DNA of 64,000 nucleotides from Nakamurella panacisegetis (GTDB lineage Bacteria > Actinomycetota > Actinomycetes > Mycobacteriales > Nakamurellaceae), in NCBI RefSeq assembly GCF_900104535.1, contig NZ_LT629710.1, forward strand, positions 1,488,001-1,552,000, in the 5' to 3' direction. How positions within the stretch are numbered: the stretch's first letter is position 1; every line of letters starts with the position of its first letter. Positions 29,959-48,557 of this stretch are shown here, one piece after another. The position numbers were made by a program, and so were the translations under genes. The notes under the pieces were generated by a model. It saw only the letters and a program-made list of their open reading frames with translations. It was not told the origin of the DNA and made no database searches.

Positions 29959-30044
29959 GGGCGAGTGGCGAAATGGCAGACGCGCACGGTTCAGGTCCGT
30001 GTCCTGGAAACGGGGTGGGGGTTCAACTCCCCCCTCGCCCACCA
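29959..30044 (+). tRNA. tRNA-Leu (anticodon CAG), CCA encoded
   Basis: The acceptor stem pairs GGGCGAG (29959-29965) with CTCGCCC (30034-30040), followed by discriminator A and encoded CCA. The anticodon stem CACGG/CCGTG (29985-29989 with 29997-30001) holds the loop TTCAGGT, giving anticodon CAG at 29992-29994. A long variable arm (class II) and the T-loop GTTCAACTC are present. In mycobacteria and relatives a tRNA-Leu lies directly upstream of fhaA; here 32 kb of DNA separates them. Confidence 0.95.
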
Positions 30045-39247: not shown

Positions 39248-40128
39248 GCCCGGCAGCGGCACGCCGCGCGGTGGACATGCTCATCGACACAATGAAACTG
39301 TCGCAGCGGTTGGCGTGCAGAGCTGTTGGGCTCAATCGGTCCACCTACCAGCGCCGCCCGATCGCTCAGACACCGGCGGATCCGGACGCTGACCTGCGGG
39401 CCTGGCTGCGCCGCTACGCCACCCAGCACCCGCTGCACGGGTTCCGGCGAGCCTGGGCTGCGTTGCGGCACGACGAGGGCCGGCAGGTGAACAAGAAAAA
39501 GGTCCACCGCCTCTGGATGGACGAAGGACTGCAGGTCAGGATCTACCACCCCCGCAAACGCGTCGGCATCAACAGCGTCCCGCAGATCGCGGCGGACGCG
39601 CCGAAGGTGGTGTGGGCCATCGACTTCCAATACGACTCGACCGTCGACGGGAAGGCCATCAAGATCGCGTCGATGATCGACGAACACACCCGGCAGTCGA
39701 TGCTGCACATCGTCGAGCGGTCGATCACCGCCGACCGCCTGGTCACACACCTGCAGCAGGCGTTCGACGAGTGCGGCGGCCCACCCCAGGTGCTGCGCAT
39801 GGACAACGGCCCCGAGTTCATCTCCGATGCACTGCAGGACTTTTGCCGCAACAAGGTCGGCCTGATCTACATCCCGCCCGGCACGCCCTGGAACAACGGG
39901 CACATCGAATCATTCAACAACCGACTCCGAAGGGAATGCCTGAACCGCAACCACTGGACGAACCTCCGAGAAGCCCGAGTGGTCATCGGCGACTTCAAGG
40001 AAGACCACAACCATCGGCACCGCCACTCGGCGCTGGGCTACCTCACACCCGCCGAGTACGGTGCCCAGTGCACCCACACCCACCAACCGGTGGGCTGTGA
40101 GATCGAACCATCAACCCCAAGGCTCTAG
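39238..40128 (+). CDS. IS3-family transposase OrfB (made by -1 frameshift)
   Basis: The catalytic half has the HTH_21 region (HGFRRAWAALRHDEGRQVNK) and an rve/DDE core: VVWAIDFQYDS, LRMDNGPEF and GHIESFNNRLRRE. OrfB is in the -1 frame relative to OrfA. The AAAA at 39238-39241 lies just before the OrfA stop and allows a slip that fuses the two as OrfAB, as is usual in IS3 elements. A GTG at 39271 could give OrfB alone. Confidence 0.9.
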   Translation, partial: KILSPAAARRAVDMLIDTMKLSQRLACRAVGLNRSTYQRRPIAQTPADPDADLRAWLRRYATQHPLHGFRRAWAALRHDEGRQVNKKKVHRLWMDEGLQVRIYHPRKRVGINSVPQIAADAPKVVWAIDFQYDSTVDGKAIKIASMIDEHTRQSMLHIVERSITADRLVTHLQQAFDECGGPPQVLRMDNGPEFISDALQDFCRNKVGLIYIPPGTPWNNGHIESFNNRLRRECLNRNHWTNLREARVVIGDFKEDHNHRHRHSALGYLTPAEYGAQCTHTHQPVGCEIEPSTPRL

Positions 40129-40424
40129 CACTGCCCGGCCTACAAAACGGGGACCTGCCACCGCCACTCGATGCGTCACCGGAGCTGCAAACGGTCGTAT
40201 GTGATAGACCCGCAAGCATGGCCGTCGTTGCCGACACCCTGAGCGTCATCGGGTCCAACGAATGCCAGATCGAAATCCTCCCCGCGTAACCCAGCTCTCT
40301 CGATGAGTTGCGAAGCGTCGGATCGTTCTGCACTACGTTGTCACCTGGCCGCTCGTGACCCCATCCTTAACGACAGGCCTATCTGGGTGGACAATCACGG
40401 ACGTTCTGCCAGCTCCGCGGGTAG

Positions 40425-40588
40425 CGTCCAGCCAGGTACGAGATCGCGGGCTTCGGCGTTCGCGTCGTCGGACGTATGGCCACCGGCGTTGAGGTTGAGG
40501 TCACCTACAGCGGAACGACCGGGGAAGGGCGCACAAGGCGCACGCTGTCAGCGGACCATCCGCTGAGTTTCGCGATGGGAGACAGATG
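40425..40588 (+). pseudogene. 3' remnant of an unknown gene within the 40.1-40.6 kb gap
   Basis: A protein-like tail, RYEIAGFGVRVVGRMATGVE then VEVTYSGTTGEGRTRRTLSA, ends at TGA near 40588 and has an in-frame stop just upstream, so the 5' part is missing. I recognise no family. Nothing else supportable lies in 40131-40625. Confidence 0.35.
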
Positions 40589-40625
40589 AGGCTCGTGTCG
40601 ACGAGTTAGTCTCGAGAAACAGAAA

Positions 40626-41564
40626 CTATGTATCCAAATCAAGGGTAATCAGAGCCTGCCCACGCAGCTTCTCAAGCAACTGCTCGTACGCGACGCGTTC
40701 CTCGACGTCAAGGTCATCGCGCTGTATGGCATCTTCTACAAAAGCAACCAGAAAGCTGAAGATCGCCGAGCGCCGGTTCAGGTTAACGTACTCCAACCCT
40801 AGAGGCTGCCGCCAGGGAGTCTCGCTTCTCCAATCGGCTGGGTTTGGCCAAACGGACGAGTCCCCGAGCTCAGTCATGAGTTCCGGCTTTCCCTTGGCCA
40901 AGCTGCTCTCGGTGAACAGCCAAGCTGAATTTGGCTTCTCAGGATTCAGGCGCTGGAATGATTTTTGGGAAATAGCCCGCTCGATTTGAAATTCCCATTC
41001 ACGCCATTCTGCGTCCCGAGCAAAGTACAGTACGAACATTTGATCCATCACTTCCGGTCGCGAATCCGCCTTCGCTGCCGCTAGACTGACCGCAAACTCG
41101 TTCCATATCTGGGCAGGTTCGTACGCAATGGCGACGGCTCGCGGCCATTGCGTGTAGGGCCTGAGCACCGAGTTATACCTGCTCAACCAGAACGACGACT
41201 CTCCGATTTCCCAAGATGGTCTAAGTGCTCCGGCCGGGTGGACGAGACTAGACTGAAAGAAGGAGTTCTCAATTATCATTTCTGGTGCTCCGCGCACTAC
41301 CGGCCGCCAAAGCGCATACTGCTGAGCTGCAACGGAGGCGTGGTTGTATGCGTCCCGATCAAGCTCAAAGTAGCCAACCCTAAGTCCAGCATCCAGCCAT
41401 CCGAGATTCTCTCGAAGGAGAACAATTTGTAGAGAGAGAGAGGCGTTGGCTGCCTTGGGCGCAGACGCTACCTGGAGTCGTTCGACGATCGGGTCAATAA
41501 AATCCTCGATGAATGCCTTCGCCTGTAAAACCGAGTCGATGTCGACCATCTTACGACCCACCAT
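40626..41564 (-). CDS. Hypothetical protein, partner of a serine hydrolase
   Basis: The 312-residue soluble protein has no membrane segment and no recognised domain. It is rich in Trp and acidic residues, with segments such as VQVASAPKAANASLSLQIVL-like helices at the N-terminus and DDLDVEERVAYEQLLEKLRG at the end. The start at 41564 overlaps the hydrolase stop; a second ATG at 41549 follows that stop directly, so the pair is translationally coupled. GC is lower than in the core genome. It may be an effector, inhibitor or substrate-binding partner of the hydrolase. Confidence 0.75.
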   Translation of the reverse strand: MVGRKMVDIDSVLQAKAFIEDFIDPIVERLQVASAPKAANASLSLQIVLLRENLGWLDAGLRVGYFELDRDAYNHASVAAQQYALWRPVVRGAPEMIIENSFFQSSLVHPAGALRPSWEIGESSFWLSRYNSVLRPYTQWPRAVAIAYEPAQIWNEFAVSLAAAKADSRPEVMDQMFVLYFARDAEWREWEFQIERAISQKSFQRLNPEKPNSAWLFTESSLAKGKPELMTELGDSSVWPNPADWRSETPWRQPLGLEYVNLNRRSAIFSFLVAFVEDAIQRDDLDVEERVAYEQLLEKLRGQALITLDLDT

Positions 41565-42426
41565 TCTCGATCAGTTCCCATGGTGTGCTATAGGCTTCGC
41601 TCGGTTTGCAGATCGATACATGAGATTGCCCCGGGACAGAGTTAGAATTGCGATCTGTCTTGTAATCTTCAACCTGCACGACTGTATCGGGATTTGCCCA
41701 AAGTACGTCAGGATGAAGTGCCGGCACGCTGCGATTATACAGCTTTGCAAGCTCTTCCGTGAGATCTCTCGTATTCGCCAGCAGCTGCGAGCGCTTAGGA
41801 TCTAGCTCACTGTATGTCGGCGACTTCCGGAGGAGGAAACTAGCAATCCTTCCGAGGCCCATTAGCTCGCCGAGAGTTAGCCAACCTGTCGGAAAGAAGC
41901 CTTGGGTTGCCGGGCTGAAGAGGACGAGTCGCGCCTTCAATAGTGGGGGTTTCATTGCGAGTGTCACCTTCATGAATCCTTCGGCGGTGTTCCCAACCCT
42001 GACACGACTAGCGGCTTCGTGCCACTCTTTTGTAAGGGCGACCACCAGTCGTCGCAGGATGACGCCGCCCAGCGAATGGCCAACAAGTATGAGTTCATCG
42101 TACGGGTCGCTCCCGTCGCGGATGGGCATACCAAGTACGAATCGAAACTTCTCAGGCACAAGGGGAAAGAAGTCAGGGAAGACATGTAAGAGTCTGTGCA
42201 CCACCCCCAGTGTGTTCTCGTGCAAGGAGTCGTAGCCTACGAAGAGCATGTCCGCTTCTGCCCACCAGTCGCGATCCCCTGGCATGTCGAATTGCTGCCA
42301 CGTCGAGATCGCATGACCACCGAAGCCATGCACGAAGACAACCAGACGCGTTGCACGCTGTCTCGCCATATAGATCGTGCTTCCGTGACCCAAAGCTTCG
42401 ACGTCACGCGGCACATGCGTCTTCAT
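41551..42426 (-). CDS. Alpha/beta hydrolase, SERAC1/PGAP1-like serine esterase
   Basis: From ATG 42426 the 291-residue protein has RLVVFVHGFGG (oxyanion strand), the nucleophile elbow LVGHSLGG with Ser at about 118, a likely acid after it, and a C-terminal His in SHVSICKPSEAYSTPW. That last motif resembles the HxxIVKP seen in SERAC1-type lipases. Substrates of this group are lipids or acyl esters. There is no signal peptide, so it acts inside the cell. It overlaps the next gene and lies between IS256 and IS3 in the island. No good ribosome site is visible. Confidence 0.8.
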   Translation of the reverse strand: MKTHVPRDVEALGHGSTIYMARQRATRLVVFVHGFGGHAISTWQQFDMPGDRDWWAEADMLFVGYDSLHENTLGVVHRLLHVFPDFFPLVPEKFRFVLGMPIRDGSDPYDELILVGHSLGGVILRRLVVALTKEWHEAASRVRVGNTAEGFMKVTLAMKPPLLKARLVLFSPATQGFFPTGWLTLGELMGLGRIASFLLRKSPTYSELDPKRSQLLANTRDLTEELAKLYNRSVPALHPDVLWANPDTVVQVEDYKTDRNSNSVPGQSHVSICKPSEAYSTPWELIENGGS

Positions 42427-42440
42427 TCGTACATGATATG

Positions 42441-42599
42441 TCAAGCTGTCCGCACCCGAAACGTCACCTTCTCCCTTCTCAACGCCACATACAGCCCCAT
42501 CACCACCGAGTCCAGCAGGTCAGGGCTGAAGCCGAGCCGCTCCTTGATCTTCTCCTTCTTCTCGACACGCAGGACCTTGTCGGTGGTGTCGAAGTGGTG
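42441..42599 (-). pseudogene. C-terminal remnant, possibly phage terminase large subunit
   Basis: The minus strand encodes HHFDTTDKVLRVEKKEKIKE then RLGFSPDLLDSVVMGLYVAL to a stop at 42441. The pattern of acidic/basic residues ending in RLGxSPDxxDAxxLA is typical of the last part of phage large terminases and related ATPases. The 5' part is cut off exactly where the IS256 element begins. Confidence 0.45.
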
Positions 42600-43210
42600 G
42601 GGACTGTCCCGCAAACGGTGTTTCCGGCCCGACACGCTGAGCCCGAGTGGCCGGCGGGGAAGGTGCCGTGATGACTACGACACTTGATGCTGTGAACGCG
42701 AGGAAGAGACCCGACCCCACGGCTGAAGCCGCTGCGGCGGCGGAGTTGGTCCGGATGGCGAAGGAGAAGGGCTGGTCGTTCACCGGCCCGGATGGGCTGC
42801 TCAAACAGCTCACCAAGACGGTCTTGGAGACCGCGCTGAACGAGGAGATGACCGAACACCTCGGATACGAAAAGCATGACCCTGCGGGTCGGGAGTCCGG
42901 GAACATCCGCAACGGCACCCGCGCCAAGACGGTGCTCACGGAGTCCACCGGGCATGTGGACATCGACGTGCCCAGGGACCGGGCGGGCACGTTTGAGCCG
43001 CACATCGTGAAGAAGCGGCAACGCCGGCTGACCGGGGTCGATGAGATTGTGTTGTCGTTGTATGCGAAGGGTCTGACCAGCGGGGAGATCTCGGCGCACT
43101 TCGCCGAGATCTATGGCGCGTCGGTGTCGAAGGAGACGATCTCACGGATCACCGACAAGGTGATCGAGGAGATGCAGACCTGGCAGGCCCGCCCGCTGGA
43201 CTCGGGGCGG

Positions 43211-44441
43211 TTTCTAGCGAACGTTGCGAATCATTGAGTTGCCAGTCGGCGGTCCCATCGTCGCATGAGCTGTGCTGGTGTGCGATCCGCCAGGCACAGG
43301 CGTGGTCGCGAGTTCATTTCCGCTGTTACCTGAGCGAGGTGGGCGGCGGTGATGAGCGAGAGGTCGGTGCCCTTCGGAAAGTACTATCTCAAGAGGCCGT
43401 TGGTGTTTTCGTTGCTGCCTCGCTGCCAGGGTGAGTGTGGATCCGCGAAGTAGATTTTGATCTTGGTGGCCCGTTCGATCCGGTCGTGGTGAAACATCTC
43501 GTTGCCCTGGTCCCAGGTCAGTGTGCGACGCAGCGCTGGTGGCATGCCGGCGAACACAGCGATCAGTGCGTCACCGACGGATTGGGCCGAATGTCCGTCG
43601 GGCAGTGGGACCAGGACGGTGTGTCTGGTCTTGCGTTCGACCAGTGTTGCGATCGCAGACCGTTGTCCCGCACCGATGATGAGGTCACCTTCCCAGTGAC
43701 CGACCTGACCGCGACGCTCGACCACGGCCGGCCGGCTTGAGATCGACTTCATCTTGGTCAACTGCTTCATCGCGCCTTCACGGGTTCGGCCCCTACCTCT
43801 GCGGTGGCGGTAGATACGGGCCGTACGCAGGTTGCTAGGGGTCGCGGCGCAGATCAGCCCGCGGTAGACGCCCGCGTAGATGGTCTCGGCGCAGACGTGC
43901 CAATCGGGTCGATTGCGGTAGCGGCGCCGCAGCCATCGACTGATCTGTCCCGGCGACCATCGGGTCTTGAGCTTGCCGGCGACCACTGCGCGAAGTTGGT
44001 CGTCCGCGGCGAATCGGTGCGGCTTGGGTCGCCGACGTCGCTCGTGGGCTTGGTTGTGGGCGAACCACGGCTGATATCTGCCGTCGGCCTTGCTGTTCCT
44101 GGCGATCTCCCGATAAACGGTCTGGAAGCTGCGACCGATGCGGGCAGCGATCGACTTCACCGGCTCTCCCCGGGCCAGCCCGTCGGCGATCTCGATCCGG
44201 TCGTCCTGATTGAGGTAGCGGTTGCTGATCGGCGTATCGACATAGCTCACGCTGCCAGCGTCGATGAACCACAGCGATCCGCAGCTCAAGGACACGCCGA
44301 CCATCTCCGACGCCGCAGCCCCGGACAGGCCAGTTCGGATCAGCTCAAAATATCGTCGTTTGACCGCAGCCGGCATCTTGTTGGCAGCGAATCTAGGCAT
44401 GTCGTACTCCGCTCGTCAGGATTCACGACGTTCGCTAGAAA
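43211..44441 (-). mobile_element. IS30-family element nested in IS256
   Basis: Terminal repeats TTTCTAGCGAACGT (starting 43211) and its complement (ending 44441) bound a 1.23 kb element on the minus strand. It interrupts the IS256 transposase after PLDS, so it arrived later. Confidence 0.85.
43231..44400 (-). pseudogene. IS30-family transposase with premature amber stop
   Basis: From ATG 44400 (MPRFAANKMPAAVKRRYFEL) the protein has the HTH and the IS30 core (GHWEGDLIIG, TWDQGNEMFHH, PWQRGSNENTNGLLR). TAG at about 43381-43383 stops it there. The same frame continues with YFPKGTDLSLITAAHLAQV and ends at 43231 in RRWDRRLATQ. In relatives the stopped position is Gln (LLRQYF), so CAG to TAG is the likely change. 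The core DDE residues precede the stop. Confidence 0.8.
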
Positions 44442-45252
44442 CCGCCAGGTGTATGCGGCGGTGTTCATCGACGCGATCGTGGTCAAGATCAGGGACGGGC
44501 AGGTCGCTAACCGGCCGATCTATGCCGCGATCGGGGTCACCTTGGACGGGGAGAAAGACATCCTGGGGTTGTGGGCAGGCACCGGCGGTGAAGGCGCCCA
44601 GTTCTCCGATGGGCGTGCTCACCGACGTCCGCAACCGCGGCGTGAAGGACGTGTTCTTCCTCGTCTGCGACGGGCTGACGGGCCTGCCGGAGGTCGCCGG
44701 CAACGTCTGGCCGCTGTCAACGGTGCAGACCTGCATCATTCACCTCATCCGCAACACGTTCCGGCTGGCGTCCCGGAAGGACTGGGATGCGTTGAAGCGG
44801 GATGTGAAACCGATCTACACCGCGGCGAACGCCGCCGCGGCGCGGGCGGCGTTCGACGACCTAGCTGACAAGTGGGGTAAACGGTATCCAGCTCTGATCA
44901 GGTTGTGGGACAACGCTTGGGAGGAGTTCATCGGAGTTCCTGGACTACGACGTGGAGATCCGTACCGTCATCTGCTCGACCAACGCGATCGAGTCGCTCA
45001 ACTCCCGGTACCGGCGGGCGATCAAGGCCCGAGGCCATTTCCCCACCGAGCTGGCCGCGTTAAAGTGCCTGTACCTGGTCACCAGGTCCCTGGACCCGAC
45101 CGGCACCGGCCGCACCCGATGGAGGATGCGGTGGAAACCCGCCTTGAACGCTTTCGCCGTTACCTTCGCCGACCGGTTCCCGGCCGCGGAGAGCTCCTGA
45201 TGATCAACGCCGGAAACACCGTTTATGGGATAGACCCTCACAGACCACTAGG

Positions 45253-45798
45253 TCAGCTTGTCAGATGCCACCAAGTGCTGATGGCTTTGAGATCTGCGGC
45301 CATGATTCTCACCAGTTCCGTCCGGGTGGAATCGGAGTCGGTGCGTGAGTATCTGGTACCGAGAGGTATAGCGGCGGCCGTCGAGGCGGTCGGAGCTGCC
45401 CAGGCGGTTGTCATTTGTGGTCCGGCCTCTCGGATCGCCGCTGCGGCGAAGTTCGTGAAGGCGGCCACTACCTCCACCGGAGCGTGCATCTCCAGCAGCG
45501 CTTGGTGGTGGGAGATTGAGGTTTTGATGTCCGATAGGGCGCTGGACAGCATCAACCAGTTGTTGGGATCGTCTGTCTTGCGTCGGATTCGGTAGGGACC
45601 TTCGAGGTAGGCCTCGACGGTGCCGATGGCGTTGCCGTAGAGGGTGGCTCGTTCGTTTCTGCGTGCGATCTTGCGTTGGATGGTGTAGCCGATGACCGCG
45701 ACGGTCGCAGCGACGAGCCCAGCGATGATTGTCGAGGCCTGTGACCAGCCGAATCCGTCGAAGAACGGCTTATCGGCCGCTGCGGTCGGCGTGATCAT
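45253..45798 (-). CDS. Single-pass membrane protein, putative effector of a CD-NTase operon
   Basis: The 181-residue protein has one transmembrane helix at about 21-40 (ASTIIAGLVAATVAVIGYTI), a basic stop-transfer segment (QRKIARRNER) and a mainly helical soluble part with YLEGPYRIRRKTD, ALSDIKTSISHHQALLEMHA and FAAAAIREAGPQMTTAWA. I recall similar sequences in actinobacteria but know no function. It is the last of three overlapping genes after an E2-like protein and a CD-NTase, the place where CBASS operons encode a membrane effector. It resembles no named effector (2TM, SLATT, patatin, nuclease) that I can recognise. Confidence 0.7.
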   Translation of the reverse strand: MITPTAAADKPFFDGFGWSQASTIIAGLVAATVAVIGYTIQRKIARRNERATLYGNAIGTVEAYLEGPYRIRRKTDDPNNWLMLSSALSDIKTSISHHQALLEMHAPVEVVAAFTNFAAAAIREAGPQMTTAWAAPTASTAAAIPLGTRYSRTDSDSTRTELVRIMAADLKAISTWWHLTS

Positions 45799-46427
45799 GC
45801 TGCCTTCTGATTCAACCCGTGGGGGGCTTCGTCGCCGAGCCAGTGCCCGCCGCCGGCCCTCCAGAGCGCCTCGAAGGCGAGGTGATCACCGACGATGTAA
45901 AGCAGGTCGAGTAGTCCCTTGTCGGGGGTCCAGCGGCGCTCTGGTGGGTCGCCGGGGTAGTAGAGGCATAGTGAGTCGTCGGGCATGCGGTGGGGGGATA
46001 GCATCCCGGTTTCGGCCCAGACCCGTGGGTAGTCCTGGGGGCTGAGTCCGAAGGTCTCGTATGCCGGGGCGGCGTAGAAATTGATCGCTACCTCGGTTAG
46101 GTCGTTTGGGCCACGGATGTCCAGTGCCACCTGGTACTTCAGCGTTCCGGGTCCTTCGACGGTGCGGAGTCGGTCCCCGTATTCGCGCCGGGCCGTCGCC
46201 CCGGTGGCCGTCCGCCACGCCGGCGACGTGCCGTACCAGTGGATCGGAGGCCAGTCGGTTGGCGTCGTCGGGGCTGGGACGATCCATGGCGATCCTAGAC
46301 ACGGCCGGCGGGGAGCTTCCGGCGCCGTGTCAGGCGTTGGGGTCTGGCCGGCCGGCTTGCCGTGCCGCCGGATCACCTGGGGGCGATCGGCGGCACGGCG
46401 ATTTTGCCGGGCAGTTCGCCCGTTCAC
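45795..46427 (-). CDS. Prokaryotic E2-like (ubiquitin-conjugating-fold) protein
   Basis: The 210-residue protein has a disordered N-terminus of about 60 residues, then an E2-like core: LKYQVALDIRGP (strands), VAINFYAAPAYE, His at 146 in SPHRMPDDSLCLYYPGD and the probable catalytic Cys154. The end has WTPDKGLLDLLYIVGDHLAF and WLGDEAPHG. This H...SLCLYYP pattern is that of E2 proteins in short type II CBASS loci, where the E2 modifies the cyclase. No E1 or JAB gene is present here. GTG 46427 overlaps the nucleotidyltransferase stop (GTGA), and its stop overlaps the next start (ATGA). Confidence 0.75.
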   Translation of the reverse strand: MNGRTARQNRRAADRPQVIRRHGKPAGQTPTPDTAPEAPRRPCLGSPWIVPAPTTPTDWPPIHWYGTSPAWRTATGATARREYGDRLRTVEGPGTLKYQVALDIRGPNDLTEVAINFYAAPAYETFGLSPQDYPRVWAETGMLSPHRMPDDSLCLYYPGDPPERRWTPDKGLLDLLYIVGDHLAFEALWRAGGGHWLGDEAPHGLNQKAA

Positions 46428-47455
46428 GGGGCCCAGGAGCGGACGGGCGTGTGACTGCGTACTGGCGCCGTCACGGCCGGGCTCCGGGTCGCTCGCTGAC
46501 CAACAGCGCGCTCCAGGCGCTGCGTTTGGACAGCAAGATCGGACGGACGCGGCAGCATCTGCGGGTCGTTGAAGAACACGGCCAACGCATCCACCGCAAG
46601 AACGTCGTATCCGTCGTTGGCATAGTTGATCGCCTCGACCAACTTGGCCCGGGCAGTGGTCAACCTTCCGACGACCTCGGCGCGATCACCCGGAATACTG
46701 ATCGGCCCGGCAACCCCGGCGGGATCGGGCGTTTCTCGCCGGGACAGATCGGCGATGGCGTAGTCGAACCACGCGACCATGCCGTCGAGCTGGTTCAGCT
46801 CGCCGGTGATGCAGGACAAGCCAAGGGCCTTGATGTTCCAGCTGCACAGCAGCTTGGAGTGCCGGCGAACCCAGTGCTTGAGCAGCCGAACTGTGCGGGT
46901 GTAGTTCACGTTGCTCAACTTGATCGCGTCCCGGACGAGTCGGGTGTGCGCCTCGGGATCGGATCGGTCCCAGGTTTCGTAATTGGGAATCCACAGGCCG
47001 TTGCCCCATGGGTAGTCGATCGCGACGATGACGTCAGCGCTGAAGTCGCTTTCGTTCGGGTCGACGGGTGCGCCGAACGCCACGTAGACGGAGCGCTTGC
47101 GCCCTCCGGTGATAACTCGCAACAACGGGAATTCGCCCTTCAAGGCGTCCCGGATGGCGTTGGCGGCTCGGTCCTGCAGCTTGGCCGGGCCGTTGGCGTA
47201 CGGCCCGAACTCACCATCGGGGTTCGGCACCACGACACCCAGATCGATGTCGGTGAGCGGGGTCAGCGCATCACCGTGCGCGACCGAGCCGTTGAGGTAG
47301 ACCCGACAGTCCGGCCCGAATTCTTCTTTCAGCGCTGTCTGGATCCGGCCGCGGCGTCGCCGGGCTTCGGTGAGCTCGGCGTCGTCCACTTGGATTCGTT
47401 CACGCGCCGCAGACAGCACTTTCAGCAGTGCGGCGATGCCGCTCAATGCGGTCAT
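46424..47455 (-). CDS. CD-NTase-like nucleotidyltransferase (CBASS-type)
   Basis: The 343-residue protein has a nucleotidyltransferase core: NGSVAHGDAL with Gly-Ser at 56-57, LTDIDLGVVV with catalytic Asp69 and Asp71, and a third acidic residue in SADVIVAIDYP at about 141. A helical C-terminal domain (IKLSNVNYTRTVRLLKHWVR, LLCSWNIKALGLSCITGELN) follows, as in cGAS/DncV-like enzymes that make cyclic oligonucleotides. The last 40 residues are Arg/Pro/Ser-rich. It is the first main gene of the three-gene operon. Its product nucleotide cannot be predicted. Confidence 0.8.
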   Translation of the reverse strand: MTALSGIAALLKVLSAARERIQVDDAELTEARRRRGRIQTALKEEFGPDCRVYLNGSVAHGDALTPLTDIDLGVVVPNPDGEFGPYANGPAKLQDRAANAIRDALKGEFPLLRVITGGRKRSVYVAFGAPVDPNESDFSADVIVAIDYPWGNGLWIPNYETWDRSDPEAHTRLVRDAIKLSNVNYTRTVRLLKHWVRRHSKLLCSWNIKALGLSCITGELNQLDGMVAWFDYAIADLSRRETPDPAGVAGPISIPGDRAEVVGRLTTARAKLVEAINYANDGYDVLAVDALAVFFNDPQMLPRPSDLAVQTQRLERAVGQRATRSPAVTAPVRSHTPVRSWAP

Positions 47456-47529
47456 CGCTGGGCCTCCAGCGCGGTGGACGCGGCGCAGCTGGTCGACCAG
47501 CTGGACCAGCAGTCGGTGACGGTTGTCAT
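47452..47529 (-). CDS. 25-codon upstream ORF coupled to the CD-NTase gene
   Basis: ATG 47529 with GAGAGG about nine bases upstream opens a 25-codon frame (MTTVTDCWSSWSTSCAASTA) whose TGA overlaps the CD-NTase ATG (ATGA). It may act as a leader that sets translation of the enzyme. The peptide itself shows no family feature, so it could also be chance. Confidence 0.4.
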   Translation of the reverse strand: MTTVTDCWSSWSTSCAASTALEAQR

Positions 47530-47572
47530 CGGTTGAAACCTCTCTCTAGCCCCCGCGTGCGGAGTGCCTGGC

Positions 47573-47725
47573 GAGACCCCCATGCGGGGTGTCTCGTGCG
47601 GGAGCACCGACCCGATCGGCAGGGTTGCCGAGAGTTGGGTAGGGTTAGAGCCGTCGCGCCTGCAAGCAGACAGCTCTAATCCCATTCGATGCTCCGGTCC
47701 CACCCGGTGCTCGGGTGGGATTTTT
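47573..47725 (+). ncRNA. Candidate structured RNA ending in an intrinsic terminator
   Basis: The plus strand shows a series of pairings: hairpin 47573-47595 (GAGAC/GTCTC with CCCC/GGGG), outer stem GGAGCACCG (47601-47609) with CGATGCTCC (47687-47695) with one mismatch, and inner stem GGGTTAGAGC (47642-47651) with GCTCTAATCCC (47673-47683) with one bulge. It ends in a perfect 9-bp terminator followed by five T. It looks partly like a class II tRNA but no cloverleaf with CCA end can be drawn. It lies on the strand opposite to, and upstream of, the CD-NTase operon. No clear promoter was seen. Confidence 0.45.
47698..47725 (+). terminator. Intrinsic terminator with T run
   Basis: TCCCACCCG (47698-47706) pairs with CGGGTGGGA (47712-47720), loop GTGCT, followed by TTTTT (47721-47725). 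It is the best rho-independent terminator in the window. No coding gene ends just before it on this strand, which supports a non-coding transcript. Confidence 0.85.
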
Positions 47726-47795
47726 GCTTTGCCGGGGGCTACCCCGTTCGTGAAACCCTTCCCGCGTTCGGACAGTCCGCTTGTTACGTACCGTG

Positions 47796-47808
47796 TTGTC
47801 GATGACAA
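47796..47808. promoter_or_regulatory. Small palindrome upstream of CD-NTase region
   Basis: TTGTC-GAT-GACAA is perfect with five-base arms. It lies in a gene-free stretch that could hold a minus-strand promoter for the CD-NTase operon or a plus-strand one. Confidence 0.3.
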
Positions 47809-48176: not shown

Positions 48177-48557
48177 GTGACATACGTAGTGGCAGAGGGG
48201 ATCGTTACCACGGAGCCAACTTTGAGGACGGTTCGAGATAGTGGCAGTGGCCGGCCGGATTACCCAGTCGCCAACTTCATCCTGAGCGTCAGGGACAGAC
48301 GACGTCGTGGGACCGAATGGGTGGATCTACCCGAAGAGAGCTACGACGTCGCGGTCTATGGAGATGCTGGCAGGCGGGCCGCATCCGTTGTTCGTGTTGG
48401 TGACCGGGTAGTTGTTGCCGGTCCAGTCCATAAGGAGGAGCGGTCGGGCGACCGTGAGTGGCTCGACCCGTTCAACCGGCACCTCAGCGCTGAGCATCTC
48501 GGCCTTTCAACAAGATTCATGTCTACCGAACAGCGTCCGATATCGGCTGACCATTGA
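48177..48557 (+). CDS. Single-stranded DNA-binding protein-like (OB fold)
   Basis: The 126-residue protein fits the SSB/OB fold: VAEGIVTTEPTLRTVRDSGS, YPVANFILSVRDRRR, WVDLPEESYDVAVYGDAGRR and AASVVRVGDRVVVAGPVHKE. It lacks the long acidic C-terminal tail of replicative SSB, ending MSTEQRPISADH. Such short SSB-like genes are common on plasmids and integrative elements, which fits the island. The start is GTG with a weak ribosome site. Confidence 0.75.
   Translation: MTYVVAEGIVTTEPTLRTVRDSGSGRPDYPVANFILSVRDRRRRGTEWVDLPEESYDVAVYGDAGRRAASVVRVGDRVVVAGPVHKEERSGDREWLDPFNRHLSAEHLGLSTRFMSTEQRPISADH

Follow-up and report, generated by a model that had tools for sequence, protein, structure and literature searches.

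The window that we analysed, a 64,000-nucleotide stretch of the Nakamurella panacisegetis genome, contains upstream of a three-gene CBASS operon a candidate small RNA gene on the opposite strand, which we consider, at a probability of roughly 60%, to be a cis-encoded antisense RNA gene of the CBASS cassette that would act as a brake on a DNA-damage-inducible operon. The anatomy of the RNA, its conservation, its linkage to the operon, the geometry of its overlap with the operon in relatives and its alternation with protein regulators were established computationally. We propose an antisense brake because tisB/IstR-1, zor/orz and dinQ/AgrB have a closely similar geometry.

The genes for the CD-NTase, the E2-like protein and the effector (Table 1) form one CBASS operon, whose probable co-transcription we read from gene overlap and order; the solved structures nearest to the CD-NTase of the window are 6p82, 6p8u and 6p8j. 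The 25-aa open frame before the CD-NTase gene is a possible translationally coupled leader peptide. In the leader of the related Variovorax locus, an ORF of greater length opens similarly (MTPVTVC, in common MTxVTxC) and, by eye, reaches the CD-NTase start. Downstream of CBASS, positions 39271-45595 hold several transposase-like frames (by eye IS3-, IS256- and IS30-like), some of which interrupt one another, and an SSB-like gene (48177-48557, plus strand; PF00436, E 1.6e-8) lies beyond the CBASS promoter region.

Table 1 Features of the CBASS operon and the candidate small RNA gene in the window
Feature	Position	Strand	Remarks
One-TM CBASS effector	45253..45798	-	PADLOC Effector 1TM PDLC00666, E 1.2e-70
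E2-like CBASS protein	45795..46427	-	PADLOC E2 PDLC00869, E 1.9e-62
CD-NTase, CBASS cyclase	46424..47455	-	PADLOC Cyclase PDLC00779, E 1.5e-162
25-aa open frame (MTTVTDCWSS...)	47452..47529	-	stop overlaps CD-NTase start (ATGA)
Conserved block upstream of -10, promoter/leader DNA	47600..47639	+	74% identical with Variovorax
Candidate sigma-A -10 box of small RNA	47640..47645	+	TAGGGT; TAGGAT in Variovorax
Candidate antisense small RNA	47646..47727	+	5' end inferred from -10 box, 3' end at U run
RNA hairpin 1	47646..47678	+	MFE fold; outer stem TAGAGC/GCTCTA, inner stem GUCGC/GC-A-GAC, loop GCCUGCAA
Intrinsic terminator	47696..47725	+	stem-loop 47696-47722, U run 47721-47725
Candidate CBASS promoter	47753..47774	-	TGTCCG-N10-GGGTTT; degenerate, 3 mismatches to damage box; weak
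Alternative candidate CBASS promoter	47785..47807	-	TGTCAT-N11-TACGTA; 2 mismatches; weak

The preliminary description had taken positions 47573-47725 of the plus strand to be one structured RNA capped by a terminator. This stretch folds at -85.9 kcal/mol with a z-score of -6.06, unequalled in 200 shuffles, and both the strong fold and the terminator end stand; the 5' boundary does not, because the -10 box TAGGGT and the layout of the relatives indicate an RNA that spans about 47646-47727. The refined 82-nt RNA folds with a z-score of -5.05, and among 80-nt windows over 420 nt outward of the CD-NTase start the best fold (offset 190, z -8.1) is the 3' part of the element. The first hairpin (~47573-47595) lies outside the inferred RNA and would be part of the CBASS leader; Variovorax retains the core of this hairpin, apart from one double change. 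The -35 element of the small RNA is weak in the window (TCGGCA, 18-nt spacing, 4/6 match). The terminator stem-loop comprises 12 pairs, seven of them G-C, the most among eight terminator-like sites in a scan of 44-51 kb, where shuffles contain 4.1 such sites on average. Between 47679 and 47722 of the plus strand, two alternative 5' arms, AUCCCAUUCG (an upstream repeat) and GUCCCACCCG, can pair with a single terminator 3' arm; this doubling is also present in folds of the Variovorax copy and could form a terminator switch. An RNA on the plus strand, opposite to the operon, was likewise part of the initial account and agrees with our results, whereas it does not simply lead away from the operon but most likely runs antisense inside the operon's 5' leader.

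A degenerate tRNA or tRNA-like attachment site, which had been offered as one reading of the element, was dismissed: the sole tRNA that ARAGORN detects in the window is tRNA-Leu at 29959, Rfam finds none, and the element itself gives neither a cloverleaf nor a tRNA match. The Rfam search recommended earlier returned no family above the gathering cut-off for the window, L027 or L057; at E<=5 the window yields five matches, all far below cut-offs. We also rejected a coding gene at the element, since indels of 1-3 nt lie within the conserved stretch and shift the frame (1 nt between the close relatives L026 and L071 of group A9; 1-3 nt relative to Variovorax). Judged by sequence signals, the RNA genes as a class possess their own promoter and terminator and no coding capacity.

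A blastn search with positions 47500-47800 against 72,556 plasmids gave one match, 82% identical over 130 bases, on a Variovorax plasmid; it has no annotated feature under it and corresponds to about 47602-47731 of the window. The Variovorax copy adjoins genes for a CD-NTase, an E2 protein and an effector that are 67, 55 and 62% identical to those of the window, respectively. Identity amounts to 84% from the -10 box to the terminator and 74% in the preceding 40 nt, compared with 41-48% in flanking blocks and 56% in a block extending deeper into the coding side. Over 47599-47728, nine of the 46 pairs of the window are broken in Variovorax and one is changed on both sides, and the Variovorax sequence folded alone prefers a different fold; by itself, this comparison gives no support for the big fold spanning the interval. 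Near the CBASS operon, the plasmid (L013, 7223-7558) carries a gene annotated as Lsr2 family. Since this family is typical of actinobacteria, it is as if the segment derived from an actinobacterium.

We searched one genome per species (84,980 species) with a profile of five CD-NTases and a pattern scan, which gave at least 45 loci and at least 80 candidate stretches; further genome searches at a cut-off of E 1e-60 gave matches in 4 of 398, 5 of 250 and 7 of 397 genomes, sets that partly overlap. A putative RNA gene of 66-86 nt occupies the same place and orientation in 24 of 54 CD-NTase loci (~14 groups), where the RNAs were recognised by eye with boundaries set by hand, and where the loci are related rather than independent and include some near-copies. 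Their common layout comprises a TANNNT box, the 66-86-nt RNA, usually a 5' hairpin, and a GC-rich terminator, and their -10 box precedes the cyclase start codon by 51-212 nt (20 RNA loci). The groups include those of the window, Variovorax, Rhodococcus, several Microbacteriaceae or Micrococcales, Arthrobacter, Blastococcus and Micromonospora, together with a Streptosporangiales MAG and an unplaced actinobacterial MAG; they have layout in common more than sequence, and kinship of sequence between groups is weak. The tree contains the 54 CD-NTases, with the distant relatives L004-L012, L016 and L017 outside it (the upstream regions of L016 and L017 were read). The neighbour-gene count covers 18 of the 24 RNA loci, the promoter-spacing count 20 and the leader-complementarity test 21, while the hairpin, -35 and ribosome-binding-site tests used 14 group representatives; the fold scan and promoter comparison used 29 of the 30 loci without RNA, with L059 left out.

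The fold z-scores of the 24 RNAs range from -5.05 to +0.5 and lie below -2.9 in 16 of them; for L031 (z +0.5) and L074 (z -0.1), shuffles are equally stable. In a window scan, 17 of 24 loci have their best-folding 80 nt positioned on the RNA with an overlap of 50 nt or more, and the median best z-score is -4.3 in RNA loci versus -3.4 in the 29 loci without RNA (p 0.012). As loci without RNA also hold strong folds, folding alone proves little. These folds and the weak z-scores in a few loci are compatible with GC-rich intergenic stems of no function, a reading to which we give next to no weight in view of (i) the conservation between an actinobacterium and a proteobacterial plasmid, (ii) covariance-model matches that are correctly placed in loci outside model building and (iii) the coincidence of promoter, terminator and damage box.

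Stronger evidence than folding alone points to a genuine RNA gene. Five of 14 groups have a TTGANN -35 element 16-19 nt before the -10 box (0.22 expected, P 6e-7). Nine of 14 bear a 5' hairpin whose loop contains CCA (1.0 expected, P 3e-8), a motif that was selected after looking and whose strict test the window itself fails; regardless of the motif, a 5' hairpin is present in 11 of 14 groups versus 6.2 expected (P 0.007). Compensatory changes were found within two groups: in the A10 terminator stem, 4 of 12 pairs are changed on both sides with 95.8% of cells paired (5 of 500 shuffles as high), and in that of A9, 2 of 17 pairs are changed on both sides (23 of 500 shuffles as high). Across 11 locus pairs, similarity in the RNA exceeds that of the 190 nt beyond it in every pair and that of the leader side in nine. 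The covariation and homologue check named in the preliminary description has thus returned homologues with the same anatomy, and its suggestion of a small RNA gains support from same-anatomy RNA genes, with promoter and terminator signals, at the same type of operon.

The structure might instead belong to the minus-strand CBASS message, as a leader, attenuator or riboswitch of which the plus-strand terminator is the mirror image. The CBASS start predicted beyond the element does place the element in the leader, and in 8 of 24 loci, the window included, the reverse strand gives the more stable fold. We nevertheless regard this as very unlikely, as the U runs and the -10 and -35 boxes sit on the RNA strand. 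Moreover, 13 cells of the A10 stem are G-U on the RNA strand (A-C on the message) versus three in the opposite sense, which favours a plus-strand RNA, though the count leans that way as the tested structure was drawn on the RNA strand.

Two covariance models allowed us to follow the RNA beyond the loci on which they were built. Model R1, made from the window and Variovorax only and run unfiltered on eight relatives, gave outward-strand matches directly upstream of the CD-NTase gene in three (L022 at rank 1, L015 at rank 3 and L023, weak, at rank 10 of 61); in 397 genomes of the window's own order it found its own genome only, with seven CD-NTase carriers in a like-drawn set. Model R2, made from five Microbacterium-type RNAs, matched 23 of 398 Microbacteriaceae genomes at E<=0.01, and only three of these matches are strong (98-105 bits, the next best reaching 35 bits). 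Each of the three adjoins one of the four CD-NTases found in these genomes; the fourth locus (G124, L031 type) was missed. Run unfiltered on eight other RNA loci, R2 fell on the RNA of L018, L019 and L031 among seven matches at E<=1, and not on that of L013, L015, L023, L032 or L037. In the genomes searched, the RNA thus appears to be linked to the related CBASS operon and to move with it between species. Viral contigs contained no relative of the cyclase; one RNA pattern had no match there and a second had five, chance-like in appearance. Searches of phage and E. coli genomes gave no match.

The loci without RNA commonly hold a protein regulator in the same place. Genes for HTH proteins or M78 peptidases lie upstream in none of 18 RNA loci versus 21 of 30 others (48 loci; Fisher 7e-7, kinship ignored). 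On the tree of 54 CD-NTases, RNA and protein regulator switch seven times, and starred branches require at least five changes of the RNA label. Pfam identifies M78 in the tested proteins of L014, L029 and L038 and HTH in L038 and L039, below the cut-off in L014; the tested frame of L036, whose label M78same was set by eye, gave no match. From the repeated exchange of RNA and protein regulators at one place we argue that both have the same role, control of the operon; this alternation and the linkage to CBASS support the earlier suggestion of an operon regulator. An M78-type peptidase gene (HExGH) stands upstream of the CD-NTase gene and in the same direction in L014 (2081-3872), L020, L021, L024, L029, L035, L049 and L082, and several M78 loci encode a protein of ~250-355 aa before the peptidase gene (weak HTH match in L014); the two would form a CapH/CapP-like pair of different build. 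The Streptomyces loci L044, L047, L051, L060 and L061 carry neither the RNA nor a motif-found HTH/M78 gene and have GGCATATGAC in common upstream of the cyclase.

We examined the CD-NTase strand for the operon promoter. Between the RNA's box and the start codon, TANNNT occurs in only 1 of 20 loci, whereas within 120 nt past the RNA 3' end it occurs in 18 of 20, in many after TGTCGG or TGTCAG. Thirteen of 24 loci, from 8 of 14 groups, have the strict form TGTCRG-N9..11-TANNNT on the CBASS strand immediately beyond the RNA, where shuffles give an expectation of 0.02 loci; the RNA 3' ends had been fixed before the damage box was noticed. With the CBASS start taken to be 7 nt downstream of the box, 10 of the 13 loci place it no more than 2 nt from the RNA 3' end; in the remainder it lies at -6 and -12 (two loci) and -57 (one locus). 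Of the 29 loci without RNA, two contain the strict box in the up to 3 kb covered; in one of them it is on the opposite strand, and in the other it stands 670 nt away from the cyclase.

In its letters, this box corresponds to the RecA-NDp promoter consensus. The genome of the window supplies a control: TGTCGGTG-N8-TACCGT stands ~100 nt ahead of both the RecA domain and the probable recA start codon (start codon read by eye; the open frame itself extends past the box), so that a promoter of the same form stands near the host's own recA. A longer box, TTGTCRGTG-N8-TANNNT, was discarded, as it has only two matches in that genome and misses recA by one base. The host probably encodes PafBC, since its genome (G000) has a pafA-like gene, named by eye from the translation, followed by two WYL genes side by side. 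As outlined in excerpts of the literature (PMC6789036, PMC11804915, PMC5087735, PMC10693628), the RecA-NDp promoter is activated by PafBC and has its box at about -26 of a sigma-A start. In the window, Variovorax, L022 and L031, the match to the damage box is poor (2-3 mismatches). Because the box of the window is degenerate, the overlap of RNA and CBASS leader, which is predicted well in relatives, is only likely in the window.

The close fit of the RNA terminator to the predicted CBASS start, within 2 nt in the 10 of 13 strict-box loci, is also what transcriptional interference would draw on, in which the opposing promoter or an insulating terminator matters at the CBASS promoter and the RNA is a by-product. 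We consider this quite unlikely, as the compensatory changes and the hairpin loop motif speak for a function of the RNA itself.

For the antisense brake, the parts can be assembled as follows. A housekeeping promoter inside the CBASS 5' leader would make a 66-86-nt RNA directed back at the operon promoter; the RNA would stop at its intrinsic terminator at or near the operon transcription start, so that its whole length would be complementary to the opening ~75-85 nt of the CBASS message, at a distance from the start codon. As long as cells are healthy, this constitutively made RNA would pair with the rare leader, with contact made via hairpin loops, and pairing would keep cyclase output low through duplex cleavage, early termination or a block of translation. 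Phage infection or damage would raise single-stranded DNA, the damage promoter would outrun the brake, and CBASS would be made. Transcription of the RNA, the repressive direction, the pairing mechanism and the same working of the window's degenerate promoter are what we infer. Pairing elsewhere was rejected, as cognate pairs rank like non-cognate ones: an RNA is no more complementary to the remainder of its leader (mean rank 10.8 of 21) or to the ribosome-binding site of its own cyclase (mean rank 7.9 of 14) than to those of other loci. A fuller scenario, whose odds we put slightly short of even, is that PafBC, as the host sensor of single-stranded DNA, turns the operon on, that the antisense RNA ending at the operon start sets the threshold, that RNA and HTH/M78 modules replaced each other several times, and that the RNA may also touch the cyclase.

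The last point touches on a different reading, in which the small RNA acts as a guard: in the manner of a type III RNA antitoxin, it would bind and restrain the CD-NTase or a different Cap protein, and the cyclase would be released once the short-lived RNA is lost to phage shut-off of transcription or to a phage nuclease. Two observations would suit such a guard: within the searched genomes, the RNA is linked to this family of cyclases, and a hairpin loop motif is kept while stems change. Precedents are cabRNA/CdnE03, AvcI/AvcD and RCd22/AbiF (PMC10686824, PMC10511110 and PMC12373285, respectively). It is unlikely in our assessment: it needs neither the overlap with the operon start nor the link to the damage promoter, and the regulator genes in most loci without RNA fit expression control. 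A charge test, which is indirect, gave no hint of an RNA-binding basic surface, since basicity is not higher in RNA-linked cyclases than in those with protein regulators (p 0.39), and the RNA-linked cyclases of Micromonospora are negative.

To our knowledge, no earlier RNA controller of CBASS has been described. If true, the antisense brake would be the first and would link CBASS with the actinobacterial damage response. How self-destructive immune operons are silenced is an open question, and the RNA gene provides an annotation marker for this CBASS group that protein searches miss. Within titles and abstract openings of the open-licence PMC literature, we found neither an RNA gene controlling CBASS nor a CBASS operon under PafBC, and the adjacent CBASS controllers described in the excerpted text of PMC13373217 are all proteins.

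In that text, CapH+CapP, CapW and CapK+CapS are adjacent damage-responsive controllers of CBASS or other immune operons (PMC13373217). They act, like the RNA would, at the operon promoter, and the HTH and M78 genes of the relatives resemble CapH+CapP; they are proteins, whereas here an RNA gene together with a host damage-type promoter would fill the place. Structured RNAs that act on defence proteins are also known in outline. The phage-made cabRNA binds CdnE03 and activates the cyclase (PMC10686824, in part); it resembles our candidate as a structured RNA acting on CBASS and differs in that the RNA here is encoded with the operon. AvcI RNA inhibits AvcD and decays upon transcription shut-off (PMC10511110, in part), and RCd22 RNA binds AbiF (PMC12373285, in part). 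In both pairs, as proposed here, a non-coding RNA encoded beside a toxic defence gene keeps that gene quiet; AvcI and RCd22 inhibit the protein, of which we see no sign for this RNA.

The closest parallels are type I toxin-antitoxin systems. In tisB/IstR-1, dinQ/AgrB and zor/orz, as summarised in portions of PMC4147584, the antitoxin RNA is divergent from the toxin gene and complementary to its long 5' leader, leaving the start codon uncovered, and the toxin promoter is induced by DNA damage for tisB and dinQ. As in tisB/IstR-1 and dinQ/AgrB, the RNA would be antisense to a damage-induced leader, here a prediction from sequence. Unlike in all three systems, the target would be a three-gene CBASS operon and not a small toxin; unlike in tisB/IstR-1 and dinQ/AgrB, the damage box is of the actinobacterial type and not LexA; and whereas IstR-1 pairs over 21 nt, here the whole RNA would pair, at the very 5' end of the message.
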